DNA from: a virus | IMG/VR virus record: IMGVR_UViG_3300042197_000476 | Location: 1 to 21,655 of that record | Reading direction: 5' to 3' (one strand) | Length of the DNA stretch: 21,655 bases | Part shown: in pieces, positions 1,125 to 15,586 of the stretch | Layout of the letters: each line of letters starts with the position of its first letter | Position numbering within the stretch: the stretch's first letter is position 1 | Notes under the pieces: generated by a model | What the model was told of the DNA's origin: nothing | Database searches by the model: none | The model's input: only the letters and a program-made list of their open reading frames with translations | Made by a program: the position numbers and the translations under genes

Positions 1125-1862
1125 TTATATTAAATCTAGTTTAAATACCGCATTATTCTGCCAATAAGACATAGTTTGATCTTTAGAATTTTTATGAATT
1201 GTATCAATGTGATCTTCATTTAATGAAGACCCGTGGTTTAGGGAGTAGGTAAAAAGCGGTATTGAATAACACCAAGAGCGACTAAATAAAACTCCTTCAG
1301 AAAGGCATCCGTATCTACTAACTGGGCTTAAAGTATACTTGTCGTTAATTTTGTGTTTTTTGATTAGTTGTTCGGCATATGATCTTTTTATTAAATATAC
1401 CGCTGCACTCCAGTCAAGGTATTCTCTTAAGTGAAGCCTGTTATTGATGGTAAAGTTATTAATCAAAGCCAATTGTAAAATATCATATTTATCTTTAATA
1501 GAGTTTAAAAAATCTTTCCAAGTAAAATCCCAAAAATCTACGGTCTCAAAACTTACATCATCTTCTACAATAATGGCATATTCAGAATCAGAATCTTCCA
1601 GCCATTGTTCGATTGCCTTTAAGTGTGAGATTGTACAGGCAACTTCTTTTTTTGAGATTACAGACTCATTAATTCCATGGCTAAGTAGACCTAGCACATC
1701 TTCTTCTGAACCATCTACCGCTTTTACAAAGTTAAAATTTGATACCTCATATTTTTTAAAATGTTCTTCTATATATTTTTTACGATCAGTTGATCTTTCC
1801 ATATTAACAACATATACGGGACCAAACCCATCCATCTTATTTAAACCAGTATGTTCCAACAT
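1125..1862 (-). CDS. family-25-like glycosyltransferase
   Basis: The 245-residue protein matches the glycosyltransferase family 25 (LPS-biosynthesis type) pattern. VYVVNMERSTDRK at residues 16-28 is the nucleotide-sugar entry strand, EVACTISHLKAI spans 73-84, and the acidic metal-binding IIVEDD spans 97-102. These enzymes transfer sugars such as galactose from UDP-sugar in the cytoplasm. The ATG at 1862 has an AAGGTGG ribosome site and overlaps the end of the upstream glycosyltransferase by 26 bases, which suggests coupled translation. A second ATG ten codons in is possible but lacks a site. In a tail-gene cluster it may glycosylate virion proteins or alter the host surface; which one is inference. 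Confidence 0.85.
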   Translation of the reverse strand: MLEHTGLNKMDGFGPVYVVNMERSTDRKKYIEEHFKKYEVSNFNFVKAVDGSEEDVLGLLSHGINESVISKKEVACTISHLKAIEQWLEDSDSEYAIIVEDDVSFETVDFWDFTWKDFLNSIKDKYDILQLALINNFTINNRLHLREYLDWSAAVYLIKRSYAEQLIKKHKINDKYTLSPVSRYGCLSEGVLFSRSWCYSIPLFTYSLNHGSSLNEDHIDTIHKNSKDQTMSYWQNNAVFKLDLI

Positions 1863-2550
1863 GCACCACCTTTACATAAGGAGCCAAATATATTTTACCG
1901 CCAAGATCTTTCCACATATTGCAAAAGTTATAGTCTTCAGATAAAAGTCTTTTTGATTTTGGATCAATATCTGTTCTCCAAAAATTGTAAACTGTGTCTC
2001 CATGTTTAACTCCTGCCATATCTGTCTGATCTGACCTATATGATGGAGTAGATTCTTTGAGTTTTTGAAATACTTCTCTTTTAATCAACATTACTCCAGT
2101 TCCAATATAATCAACTTCTACAATGCTGCCTGGATTTTCTTTTAATTTTTGTTTTTGTTCGGTTGAAATATTAACATTATATACTCCAGTAAAGACAGAA
2201 AGATCTGGCTTATCCTCTTTTGCGGCAGAGCGTACCCTATCCCAGTTAATTCCTTTCATTGGAACAGCGGCACCTATTAAGTCCACATCTTCCTCAATCA
2301 TCTTTAATATACCTTCTGGATTAAACCCTTGATCTGCGTCAATAAAAAGAAGATAGTCATTGCCCGTTCTTAAAAATATCTCTGTTAGTGTATTTCTTGC
2401 TCTTGTAATCAAAGACTCATTTGATAGATCAGAGTAATTAACACGATATCCTTTTTGAGTAAGCAAATTCATTAAAGAAAACATGCTTTTTTGATATGAG
2501 TTATGACAAATACCACCATACATAGGTGTTGCTATTGTTATGCTTTTCAT
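1837..2550 (-). CDS. GT-A fold glycosyltransferase
   Basis: The 237-residue product opens with SITIATPMYGG, typical of the first strand of GT-A enzymes. It has a DADQG metal/nucleotide site at residues 71-75 after the hydrophobic YLLFI. A C-terminal SEDYNFC (204-210) matches the acidic catalytic block, followed by VVHVG (228-232), a possible metal-binding histidine. It resembles phage-encoded family-2-like transferases of about 230 residues. The upstream sequence AAGGCGGGGG gives an unusually G-rich ribosome site. Its last 26 bases overlap the GT25-like gene, so the two probably act in one modification pathway. Sugar and acceptor cannot be read from sequence. Confidence 0.83.
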   Translation of the reverse strand: MKSITIATPMYGGICHNSYQKSMFSLMNLLTQKGYRVNYSDLSNESLITRARNTLTEIFLRTGNDYLLFIDADQGFNPEGILKMIEEDVDLIGAAVPMKGINWDRVRSAAKEDKPDLSVFTGVYNVNISTEQKQKLKENPGSIVEVDYIGTGVMLIKREVFQKLKESTPSYRSDQTDMAGVKHGDTVYNFWRTDIDPKSKRLLSEDYNFCNMWKDLGGKIYLAPYVKVVHVGTYWFK

Positions 2551-11769: not shown

Positions 11770-12576
11770 GTGGGTAAAACTTTTCATTTTCTATCTGGTT
11801 TACATCGCTCTGGCAATACCGTTCTTTCTGCAATATTGAATCAAAATCCAGAAGTATATGTAAGCCCTATTAGTGCTTTGATAGAGCATACTTGGGTTTG
11901 CCATAATACCGCTCAAAATTTTGAAAGCACACAGGTAAGTCTTGAAGATAAAAATAGATCAGTTAATATGATATTCAGACTGCCTGAAATATATTATGAA
12001 GATGTTAGTAAGCCAATAGTTTTTGACAGACACAAATCATGGATTAATCCAGGAAATATTGATCTTATAAAAACATATATAACTAAGAATCCAAAAATAG
12101 TTTTTACTACCAGACCCATTTTGGAATGTATTGCTTCTTTTATAGCAATAGATAAAAATGCAATTCTTGATAGCATGAATTATTGTCAATATGTACAAGA
12201 TTCAAATTTAACAGAAAATGAAAATATTGTTGATTATTTAATGTCAGAACATAGTACATTTGGTTTTACTAGAAACCTTGCCTTAAACTCAATAGATAAT
12301 CCAGATAATTTTGGAATGATTCATGTGGTTAAGTATGAAAATCTTTTAAATACCCCACAAGAAACTATGGATGGTATCTACGACTTTTTAGAAATCGATA
12401 AGTTCAAACATAATTTTACAAATATTCGTAAGATAGAAAAATATAACGATACTGCTATAGGATTTTCTAAAGATTTACATAAAGTAAGAAGAGTTCTTGG
12501 TAAGGGTGATGTAAGAGTTGAAGATTATCTAACGCCTAGATCTATTGAGAAATATAAAGACGTTAGGTATTTTTAG
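11770..12576 (+). CDS. sulfotransferase
   Basis: The 268-residue protein has the two PAPS-binding signatures of sulfotransferases. FLSGLHRSGNTVLSAILNQNP at residues 7-27 (shown in part as SGLHRSGNT) is the 5'-phosphosulfate loop, and FTTRPILECIAS around 112-123 supplies the arginine and serine that hold the 3' phosphate. It would transfer sulfate from PAPS to a hydroxyl or amine on a glycan or protein in the cytoplasm. The GTG start follows a leaderless promoter. With two glycosyltransferases in the same genome it suggests a modified glycan on virion or host surface. Substrate is unknown. Confidence 0.83.
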   Translation: MGKTFHFLSGLHRSGNTVLSAILNQNPEVYVSPISALIEHTWVCHNTAQNFESTQVSLEDKNRSVNMIFRLPEIYYEDVSKPIVFDRHKSWINPGNIDLIKTYITKNPKIVFTTRPILECIASFIAIDKNAILDSMNYCQYVQDSNLTENENIVDYLMSEHSTFGFTRNLALNSIDNPDNFGMIHVVKYENLLNTPQETMDGIYDFLEIDKFKHNFTNIRKIEKYNDTAIGFSKDLHKVRRVLGKGDVRVEDYLTPRSIEKYKDVRYF

Positions 12577-14071: not shown

Positions 14072-14087
14072 TGTGATTTACCTCACA
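14072..14087. promoter_or_regulatory. Crp/GlxR-like site TGTGA-N6-TCACA
   Basis: TGTGATTTACCTCACA is a perfect palindrome of the Crp-family type. Read on the minus strand it is identical to the site at 15582-15597. It covers the stop codon of the 14078-14224 gene. Confidence 0.6.
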
Positions 14088-14284: not shown

Positions 14285-14382
14285 GTCTTAACACGGCGTG
14301 TCGTGTGTGTTGTTAGTCACATTTTCTACCCCCGCGTTCGGGCGTGTCGTCCTCGGGGTGTCCGTTTTGTACCATTTCCCTG

Positions 14383-14447: not shown

Positions 14448-14477
14448 TGTCAGACCCCCCTGTTATACTTCCAGTAT
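14448..14477 (+). promoter_or_regulatory. PafBC-like promoter of the 14506 gene
   Basis: TGTCAG (14448-14453), ten bases including a C-run and TG, TATACT (14464-14469), two bases, CAGTAT (14472-14477). It lies about 30 bases upstream of the ATG at 14506. Confidence 0.65.
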
Positions 14478-14505: not shown

Positions 14506-14694
14506 ATGACTAACACTAAAAAATGTAAATGTGAAAAAGCACATCTCCTAACTGATGTGCTAACTACTGAGGATAATCTCAGAGTAGTAAATGTCCAGAA
14601 ATGGCATAAATGCTTTAACTGTGGAAAGTTCCAAATCTCTAAGTGGATTAGACTTCACGAGTTTAGATGTAATCCTTCTTACTTCGTAAAATAA
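14506..14694 (+). CDS. small Cys/His zinc-binding protein
   Basis: The frame is open from 14344, but the earlier start would overlap the promoter, and AAAGAAAGG precedes the ATG at 14506. The 62-residue protein has C7-x-C9, then HKCFNCG (H34, C36, C39) and H51-x3-C55. This could hold one or two zinc ions. No nucleic-acid-binding family is recognised. It is the first gene of the plus arm and has its own PafBC-like promoter, so it may be expressed on DNA damage. Confidence 0.66.
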   Translation: MTNTKKCKCEKAHLLTDVLTTEDNLRVVNVQKWHKCFNCGKFQISKWIRLHEFRCNPSYFVK

Positions 14695-14707: not shown

Positions 14708-14747
14708 CCTAGTGAGCCTCACTAAATAAGTGAGCAAATAATCTAGG
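14708..14747 (+). ncRNA. leader with mutually exclusive hairpins
   Basis: In the gap before the 14780 gene, AGTGAG, CTCACT and AGTGAG occur in series (14711-14716, 14718-14723, 14729-14734), so the middle segment can pair with either flank. CCTAG (14708-14712) and CTAGG (14743-14747) enclose them. The TGAGCCT...AAATAAGT pattern also appears twice in the 15309-15370 leader. It suggests an attenuator-type switch. Confidence 0.5.
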
Positions 14748-14779
14748 TCAAGGGAATTTCTTAGAAAGGAAATAAATAA

Positions 14780-14962
14780 ATGACTTACACACTTACACTA
14801 GAAACCTTCAATGGTTCTACTAAAAAAATTAACCTATCCTCTAGGGGTCAGGTTGCTCAATTCATAACTACTTATCCTACTCAATTACCAGTAGGTATAG
14901 CAGTAAAAGTTTCTTGCGATACCCTTGGTATTCGTGGAACTATTCGTGGTAATAGAAAATAG
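14780..14962 (+). CDS. small beta-type protein, paralogue of 13376-13570
   Basis: The 60-residue protein starts MTYTLTLETFNGSTKKINL and ends SCDTLGIRGTIRGNRK. The V..FI..Y and K[V/I].CD.LGI.G blocks match the minus-strand paralogue. A small beta fold with one conserved cysteine is likely. TTAGAAAGGAAATAAATAA precedes the ATG. It is followed 15 bases later by the 48-residue paralogue pair member, so this arm repeats two genes that are also in the minus operon. Confidence 0.72.
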   Translation: MTYTLTLETFNGSTKKINLSSRGQVAQFITTYPTQLPVGIAVKVSCDTLGIRGTIRGNRK

Positions 14963-14977
14963 AAAGGAAATAAATAA

Positions 14978-15124
14978 ATGGATACTTACAACAGAATACT
15001 AAAAGAGCAACAAGAAAAAAGAATTGCTCAAAGTAGAAAAGACCAAGAAGTTATTGAGGCTATGTTTTCAAATAATTCTAGAATTCTAAATAATAATTAT
15101 TTGCTAAATCAAATAAATAAATAA
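14978..15124 (+). CDS. 48-residue helical protein, paralogue of 14078-14224
   Basis: The product (MDTYNRILKEQQEKRIAQ...) is charged and probably one long helix. EAMFSNNSR and LNNNY match the minus-strand copy. AGAAAGG lies about ten bases before the ATG, the same ribosome-site type as the 14780 gene, from which it is separated by 15 bases. No family is known. Strong conservation of the central EAMFSNN suggests a binding surface shared with its paralogue. Confidence 0.7.
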   Translation: MDTYNRILKEQQEKRIAQSRKDQEVIEAMFSNNSRILNNNYLLNQINK

Positions 15125-15128
15125 AAAG

Positions 15129-15183
15129 TTTTCTACTAATAAAAAATTGGTAGAAAATTCCCGAGGCGATCTCGGGGGGTTTT
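15129..15183 (+). terminator. double hairpin ending the 14780-15124 unit
   Basis: TTTTCTAC (15129-15136) pairs with GTAGAAAA (15150-15157). Then CCCGAG (15160-15165) pairs with CTCGGG (15171-15176), followed by GGGTTTT. The second hairpin with its short T-run is a plausible intrinsic terminator. Confidence 0.65.
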
Positions 15184-15200
15184 CCACAGGTTTATCCACA
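15180..15200 (+). promoter_or_regulatory. paired DnaA-type boxes
   Basis: TTTTCCACA (15180-15188, one mismatch) and TTATCCACA (15192-15200, perfect DnaA box) start 12 bases apart. The same spacing and orientation are used by the pair at 16654-16674. They may bind host DnaA, as a replication or transcription signal. Confidence 0.6.
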
Positions 15201-15209
15201 GGCTTAAGA

Positions 15210-15225
15210 TGTGAGGTTTATCACA
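15210..15225. promoter_or_regulatory. Crp/GlxR-like site TGTGA-N6-TCACA
   Basis: TGTGAGGTTTATCACA is a perfect palindrome-type site, ten bases after the DnaA box pair and about 40 bases upstream of a PafBC-like promoter. Confidence 0.6.
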
Positions 15226-15263
15226 AAAATAATTCTACGACACGCCCAAGATTAGCCCCAAAA

Positions 15264-15293
15264 TGTCAGACCCCCCTGATAGACTTACAGTAT
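15264..15293 (+). promoter_or_regulatory. PafBC-like promoter of the 15392 gene
   Basis: TGTCAG (15264-15269), ten bases (A, six C, TGA), TAGACT (15280-15285), two bases, CAGTAT (15288-15293). A leader of about 100 bases follows before the coding sequence. Confidence 0.65.
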
Positions 15294-15308
15294 AAAGAAA
15301 ATTAAATA

Positions 15309-15375
15309 GTGCTAAATGAGCCTAGCAAATAAGTCTAGAAATAGAATGAGCCTAGCAAATAAGTTAGCACAATAA
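15309..15375 (+). ncRNA. structured leader with direct repeats
   Basis: GTGCTAA (15309-15315) and TTAGCAC (15364-15370) enclose two 19-base copies of ATGAGCCTAGCAAATAAGT (15316-15334 and 15346-15364). The TAGCA in each copy offers an alternative partner for TGCTA at 15310, giving competing hairpins. The same stretch also reads as a 19-codon frame (15316-15375) with a repeated MSLANK, so it could be a leader peptide. Confidence 0.5.
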
Positions 15376-15391: not shown

Positions 15392-15586
15392 ATGACTACA
15401 CTAAATAAAACTACGATAGAAATCGTTTTAGAAAATGGTTTCAATATTCAGGATAAAATCTGCGTATTTTGCTCAAATACCCTTGATCGCTGGGATACTT
15501 TTTGCTTCCCTTGCCAAGAGTATAAAGGCGTGATGAAAGTCATAGACGCCGTTGATTACTACGGAGTAGATATTCTAGGTGTGTGA
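15392..15586 (+). CDS. small four-cysteine zinc protein
   Basis: The 64-residue protein has C24-x2-C27 (CVFC) and C38-x2-C41 (CFPC) after an N-terminal IEIVLENGFNIQDK. A single zinc knuckle is likely. The ATG follows GAAAGGAG with good spacing. The gene is controlled by the PafBC-like promoter and the repeat-containing leader. Its TGA stop is inside a Crp-like palindrome (15582-15597). No family is recognised. Confidence 0.65.
   Translation: MTTLNKTTIEIVLENGFNIQDKICVFCSNTLDRWDTFCFPCQEYKGVMKVIDAVDYYGVDILGV

Follow-up and report, generated by a model that had tools for sequence, protein, structure and literature searches.

Two leaders in the stretch of viral DNA analysed here (IMG/VR virus record IMGVR_UViG_3300042197_000476, positions 1 to 21,655; all 21,655 nt are called the window below) were found to carry one RNA family, which is nearly confined to phages and absent from Rfam. 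The element is almost certainly a real structured RNA that acts in cis on its transcript. The best explanation as a whole, still short of an even chance, is a cis-acting leader RNA that would be bound by a trans factor and would modify RNA polymerase. The family is abundant in freshwater-type actinophages that seem largely uncultured. In addition, serial repetition of one near-invariant loop is unusual for a leader RNA and makes its recognition easy to test.

MFE folding gave a single stem for each leader, with one internal loop in the leader of the gene at 14780 (leader 1, 14708-14747) and two in the leader of the gene at 15392 (leader 2, 15309-15370); the features are listed in Table 1. The folded leader 2 reads GUGCUAA-A-UGAGC-CUAG-CAAAUAA-G-UCUA-gaaa-UAGA-A-UGAGC-CUAG-CAAAUAA-G-UUAGCAC. 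Leader 1 reads CCUAG-UGAGC-CUCACU-aaaua-AGUGAG-CAAAUAA-U-CUAGG and holds the same internal loop once. The RBS was unpaired in the predicted fold of the leaders. The repeats that the sequence-only reading had placed within a GTGCTAA/TTAGCAC stem were confirmed as identical 20-nt copies of AATGAGCCTAGCAAATAAGT at 15315-15334 and 15345-15364. They are the halves of a two-fold-like arrangement in which their middles pair together (CUAG/CUAG) and each copy supplies strand A to one of the internal loops and strand B to its neighbour. The AGTGAG-CTCACT-AGTGAG run reported before the 14780 gene was present at 14711-14734. The two leaders are related, as had been proposed, but the shared AAATAAGT (14724-14731) is not the counterpart it was taken for, since in leader 1 it belongs to the hairpin, as loop plus stem. 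There, CAAATAAT (14735-14742) is the true second strand of the module.

Table 1. Features of the two leaders and their surroundings in the window, with LexA-like hairpins of other loci
Feature	Position	Strand	Basis or remark
One-module RNA element between genes 14508-14694 and 14780	14708..14747	+	MFE -11.2, z -3.0; covariance model E 1.7e-6
P1 of the 14708 element, CCTAG/CTAGG		+	
Strand A of the 14708 element, TGAGC	14713..14717	+	
Hairpin of the 14708 element, CTCACT-AAATA-AGTGAG	14718..14734	+	
Strand B of the 14708 element, CAAATAA	14735..14741	+	
Small gene, 60 aa, led by the one-module element	14780..14962	+	126 relatives in IMG/VR
Intrinsic terminator-like CCCGAG-gcgat-CTCGGG + GGGTTTT, closes the preceding unit	15161..15184	+	Sequence; stem listed on the opposite strand
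CRP/GlxR-like palindrome TGTGA-N6-TCACA	15210..15225	.	54 nt upstream of promoter motif 15264
Promoter-like TGTCAGACCCCCCTG...TAGACT..TACAGT before the two-module element	15264..15290	+	Window copies at 14448, 15264, 17476; motif recurs before other elements
Two-module RNA element, leader of gene 15392	15309..15370	+	MFE structure; covariance model E 3.3e-23; homologous leaders L003-L007 share the element
P1 5' arm GTGCTAA	15309..15315	+	Partner 15364-15370; MFE; both-side changes at all five P1 pairs counted
Module 1 strand A UGAGC	15317..15321	+	Flank A15316 opposite G15363; TGAGC in 212/214 copies
P2 5' arm CTAG	15322..15325	+	Partner 15352-15355; all 144 relatives selected by sequence have a complementary P2
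Module 2 strand B CAAAUAA	15326..15332	+	Flank G15333 opposite A15346; CAAATAA 178, CGAATAA 31, of 214
P3 terminal hairpin TCTA-GAAA-TAGA	15334..15345	+	MFE; CRP/GlxR-like palindrome instead in about half of relatives
Module 2 strand A UGAGC	15347..15351	+	Two-helix descriptor match
P2 3' arm CTAG	15352..15355	+	MFE; relatives chosen by sequence
Module 1 strand B CAAAUAA	15356..15362	+	Two-helix descriptor match
P1 3' arm TTAGCAC	15364..15370	+	MFE; covariation
Small cysteine-containing gene, 64 aa, led by the two-module element	15392..15586	+	40 relatives in IMG/VR
LexA-like hairpins of the element in other loci	L053 8756; L067 14096; L078 13421; L144 8486; L217 374; L210 2497		

The unit of the family is an internal loop, 5'-R-UGAGC / CAAAUAA-R'-3', flanked by two helices, in which R and R' mostly combine an A with a G, in either order; an element carries one, two or three such modules in series. 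A pattern scan of IMG/VR gave at least 120 stretches, in many of which two copies were spaced by 30 or 35 nt. This initial viral scan included chance matches inside genes and the counts were therefore restricted to elements with two helices or two tandem anchors. The descriptor, which required strand A, inner helix, strand B and outer helix, found 238 modules and 151 elements among 163 loci, compared to 0 in the reversed control and at most 1 with permuted strand letters. Together with covariance-model E values of about 3e-23 and 2e-6 for the two leaders, these counts placed the repeats beyond chance. At least one module was present in 252 of the 323 fetched loci. Among 107 distinct two-module elements, strand A was TGAGC in 212 of the 214 copies and strand B was CAAATAA or CGAATAA in 209. 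An outer stem of the ATCCT(A)G...C(T/A)AGG type, which is the stem type of the 14708 element, enclosed 1-3 modules in 27 distinct elements. Larger phage contigs had approximately 1-3 elements apiece.

Database searches showed that no Rfam 15 family was matched at the gathering threshold by the window, while 12 element-bearing loci gave one unrelated tRNA only; permissive thresholds gave chance matches only. When the leader region and two consensus elements were compared with cultured phages by BLAST, nothing relevant was found. A strict scan of the genome collection gave three matches, of which L164 and L165 were chance. The only true element, L163, was on a phage-like contig of 7.9 kb within a genome bin assigned to Flavobacteriia, where it precedes a homologue of the phage 14780 gene. 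A search of E. coli rRNA for the module (ribosomal-protein site mimicry) showed two weak, chance-like matches. No description of the element, its stacked use or the embedded operators was found in Rfam or the literature searched.

The helices of the element covary strongly. In a set of 59 sequences, both-side changes were found at 12 of 14 pairs with 222 cells compared to 63 when shuffled, counts that related sequences inflate; the covariation score was 0.631 compared to 0.134 shuffled and ≤0.127 with the 3' partners slid. Up to six standard pair types were present per position, which argues against common descent alone. Since pairing had been required in selecting this set, the test was repeated on 144 distinct tandem elements selected by sequence only. 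The middle helix P2 was fully complementary in all 144, in the forms CTAG/CTAG, CTTAG/CTAAG, CTAAG/CTTAG, CTGAG/CTCAG and CTCG/CGAG, and the outer helix P1 had at least 4 bp in 116 (shuffled mean 27, maximum 39). The flanking purines covaried as well: 161 of 222 cases combined an A on one side with a G on the other (shuffled 89, maximum 111). Overall, both leaders carry the same covarying structure, which upheld the earlier proposal of structured regulatory leader RNAs.

Elements were on the coding strand, before an RBS and an ORF, in 117 of 127 cases, with 0 in the antisense control. Most were directly 3' of a promoter-like TTGACTTT-N-TATACT or TGTCAGACCCCCCTG-TANNNT, then an AAATA(A/G) stretch. 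The 14708 element had no clear promoter directly ahead and is approximately 225 nt after the start predicted from 14448. Two elements were found upstream of one gene in L052, L097 and L217, and L052 showed promoter-like sequence before each. In many leaders the gene begins about 17-63 nt from the element. These genes are small, mutually unrelated in sequence and without a confident Pfam family. For homologues of gene 15392, an element was present within the fetched flanks in 36 of 40 loci and directly before the gene in only about ten. Recurrence upstream of genes in related phages, anticipated by the sequence-only reading, was found for the 14780 gene, whose homologues had the element in 44 of 56 distinct leaders, so that the structure withstood the refuting condition set by that reading (lack of conservation before homologous genes). 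Given the two elements before one gene and these gene-anchored counts, the element seems to track transcription starts more than genes.

Other sequences recurred around the promoters and leaders. The TGTCAGACCCCCCTG blocks of the window are followed by a dyad around the -10, TATACTTCCAGTATA (GATAGGATAGTCCTATC in relatives), without a clear -35. Shortly before promoters, CGACACGCC / GGCGTGTCG was found in either orientation (window positions 14295, 14341, 15238 and 16725) and also upstream of TTGACTTT promoters in many loci; it is possibly another regulator site. Between the terminator and the next promoter, window positions 15180-15202 hold TTTTCCACAGGTTTATCCACAGG with a perfect DnaA-box sequence, TTATCCACA, and resembling stretches were present in L024-L038. 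A second covarying hairpin (GGTTAGaaagtCTAACC, GATAACacaagGTTATC, GGTATCaaataGATACC) was found between the CCTAG-type element and the RBS in L050, L109, L122, L225 and others. Leaders of L011, L040 and L114 had another recurring block, GGGTAGAAA(A)AGTAAATAGGCGAAATCCC(T)GCC, near such elements.

The terminal hairpin was a CRP/GlxR-like TGTGA-N6-TCACA in 71 of 144 tandem elements. All 71 had a TGTC(A/G)G promoter motif shortly downstream (44 nt in 69, 43 nt in two), compared to only 1 of the 73 tandem elements without a CRP-like hairpin. As this second promoter motif is 3' of the element, transcripts from there would be without it. LexA-like CGAAC-N4-GTTCG terminal hairpins were found in 6 of 107 two-module elements, and the loci had 22 LexA-like boxes (controls 0-2). 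The AAATA[AG] leader came right after the promoter-like -10 in all elements of the CRP and LexA classes and in 79 of 100 others. In the 2.4 Mb of fetched loci, TGTGA-N6-TCACA had 618 matches while control palindromes had 0-5, and the free-standing sites mainly preceded this promoter motif by 44, 49-50, 54-56 and 64-66 nt. Sites in the window were at 14072, 14383, 15210, 15582 and 20799, with distances of 54 and 65 nt to promoter motifs 15264 and 14448, respectively. The spacing of 44, 54 and 65 nt before the TGTCAG motif is helically phased, with 49-50 nt as an additional distance.

From these sites we infer that a CRP-family protein may bind the phage DNA, as if a host cAMP-type activator drove the phage promoters; GlxR of C. 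glutamicum is a CRP-family regulator that is cAMP dependent (PMC4254451). Where the RNA hairpin doubles as a CRP-like operator, with a second promoter motif 44 nt further on, DNA and RNA control would share one sequence, and this coincidence suggests that the phages tie promoters to the cAMP or SOS state of the host. A more speculative and rather doubtful idea is that this is a new class of phage RNA, in which the stackable internal-loop module is a dose-adjustable tag of the nascent transcript and the hairpin DNA is also the operator of the neighbouring promoter, for the host activator (CRP/GlxR-like) or the SOS repressor (LexA-like), joining DNA- and RNA-level control of the leader genes of the phage.

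For the preferred mechanism, the element would fold on the nascent transcript, a trans factor, which may be RNA polymerase itself or an RNA-binding protein encoded by phage or host, would bind it, and the element would then modify the elongating polymerase in cis by antipausing or antitermination, as HK022 putRNA does. Recognition of the internal loops by a trans factor is probable, while action of the element on RNA polymerase is put forward tentatively. Cis action on the elongating polymerase would make the element go with a transcription start and not with a particular gene. The polymerase reading is preferred because the element is at promoters and transcript starts, precedes unrelated genes, shows no switch and has a static fold, like putRNA. 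A terminator within 1.5 kb downstream followed 20% of elements and 15% of promoters lacking one, which is no clear excess, so that the genomes gave no positive support for antitermination.

The put elements of HK022 are approximately 70 nt long and lie downstream of early promoters, one of them about 270 nt down; they suppress termination without a dedicated protein, and putRNA has two stem-loops (PMC9378689). The element is like putL/putR in being phage-borne, about 40-80 nt long and present in few copies per phage, in its static fold with conserved unpaired bases, and in its position on the sense strand shortly downstream of phage promoters, here predicted ones. However, it is one stem with repeated identical internal loops where putRNA (about 70 nt) has two adjacent stem-loops, no sequence likeness was seen, and the hosts are different. 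Binding to the beta' zinc-binding domain is a trait of HK022-type putRNA. At the sequence level, the loop also resembles the UAA/GAN internal-loop motif of 23S rRNA, RNase P and group I/II introns, as the UAA of CAAAUAA is opposite the GAG of UGAGC between helices; a GNRA-like geometry with a cross-strand A stack is a trait of that motif. GAN/UAA is the signature of a GNRA-like loop (PMC12550061), and the fold of each unit may therefore be a known one, although the module has an extra conserved CAA and UGAGC context and is a stacked repeat in a leader RNA. The manA and wcaG RNAs of cyanophages are likewise structured RNAs of 5' leaders, known chiefly from phages and aquatic metagenomes (PMC2864571). 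The element shares this setting but precedes unrelated small phage genes with no Rfam match, whereas manA and wcaG precede metabolic genes.

Protection of mRNA and control of translation are close rivals of the polymerase reading. The RNase III sites of T7 are likewise interrupted stems, found where transcripts start and between early cistrons. The interrupted stem of the element could protect the phage mRNA, or its loop could fix a specific nuclease cut as in the T7 sites. Such action on mRNA stability or processing would suit the position of the element at the 5' ends of transcripts and also, as the window shows, between two cistrons, together with the unrelated downstream genes and a length that varies around a fixed loop. 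It was nevertheless judged rather unlikely, as nuclease sites usually require far less conservation than the near-invariant TGAGC loop shows, the loop is repeated, unlike that of T7 sites, in modules stacked one to three times, and no element was seen at operon 3' ends in the sampled loci. A phage or host protein on the stacked loops could also repress or enhance the following small gene, for which the short distance to the gene start and the repeated loops, suited to a multivalent protein, would speak. Action on translation was considered a little less likely again, since the RBS is free in the predicted fold, the second promoter motif of the CRP class between element and RBS would yield element-less transcripts, and unrelated target genes do not fit simple autoregulation.

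The sequence-only reading had favoured attenuation or a ligand switch with mutually exclusive hairpins, and these proposals were not borne out. An alternative pairing can be drawn for leader 1, but among 27 distinct relatives that share the outer stem, only 4 reached 5 bp in this hairpin, and the MFE structure is one static stem for each leader, whose helices covary. No intrinsic terminator was found within 300 nt downstream of any of 123 elements, the RBS is not sequestered in the MFE structure, the downstream genes share no function or pathway, and Rfam had no matching family; a metabolite riboswitch or attenuator is thus very improbable. The same low probability was given to a purely DNA-level element, with operators and repeats for DNA-binding proteins and an incidental RNA fold. 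The CRP/GlxR-like or LexA-like palindrome at P3 of many copies would agree with this, but about half of the copies have a P3 of unrelated sequence that pairs all the same, the covariation of P1 and P2 does not preserve the DNA sequence, and orientation is strictly sense (117 against 0). The operator reading accounts for P3 of one subclass and nothing else. Least credible of all is a short leader peptide with ribosome-mediated attenuation. The 19-codon frame with its repeated MSLANK is open in the window as had been described, but it is not kept in relatives: it is open through copy 2 in 38 of 127 elements, CTG or TTG replaces ATG/GTG in 16 elements, and the 5-bp form of P2 gives MSLSK and then a stop.

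The host of the phage is likely a freshwater actinobacterium, judging from gene and RBS similarity. The GP88-like protein of the window was closest to mycobacteriophage and Streptomyces phage proteins (best approximately 58% identity), and the window RBS AGAAAGGNGG fits the 16S 3' end of actinobacteria. Finally, phage-borne glycosyltransferases (Glyco_transf_25; Anp1-like) and a sulfotransferase were found in the window at 1125-2550 (-) and 11770-12576 (+).
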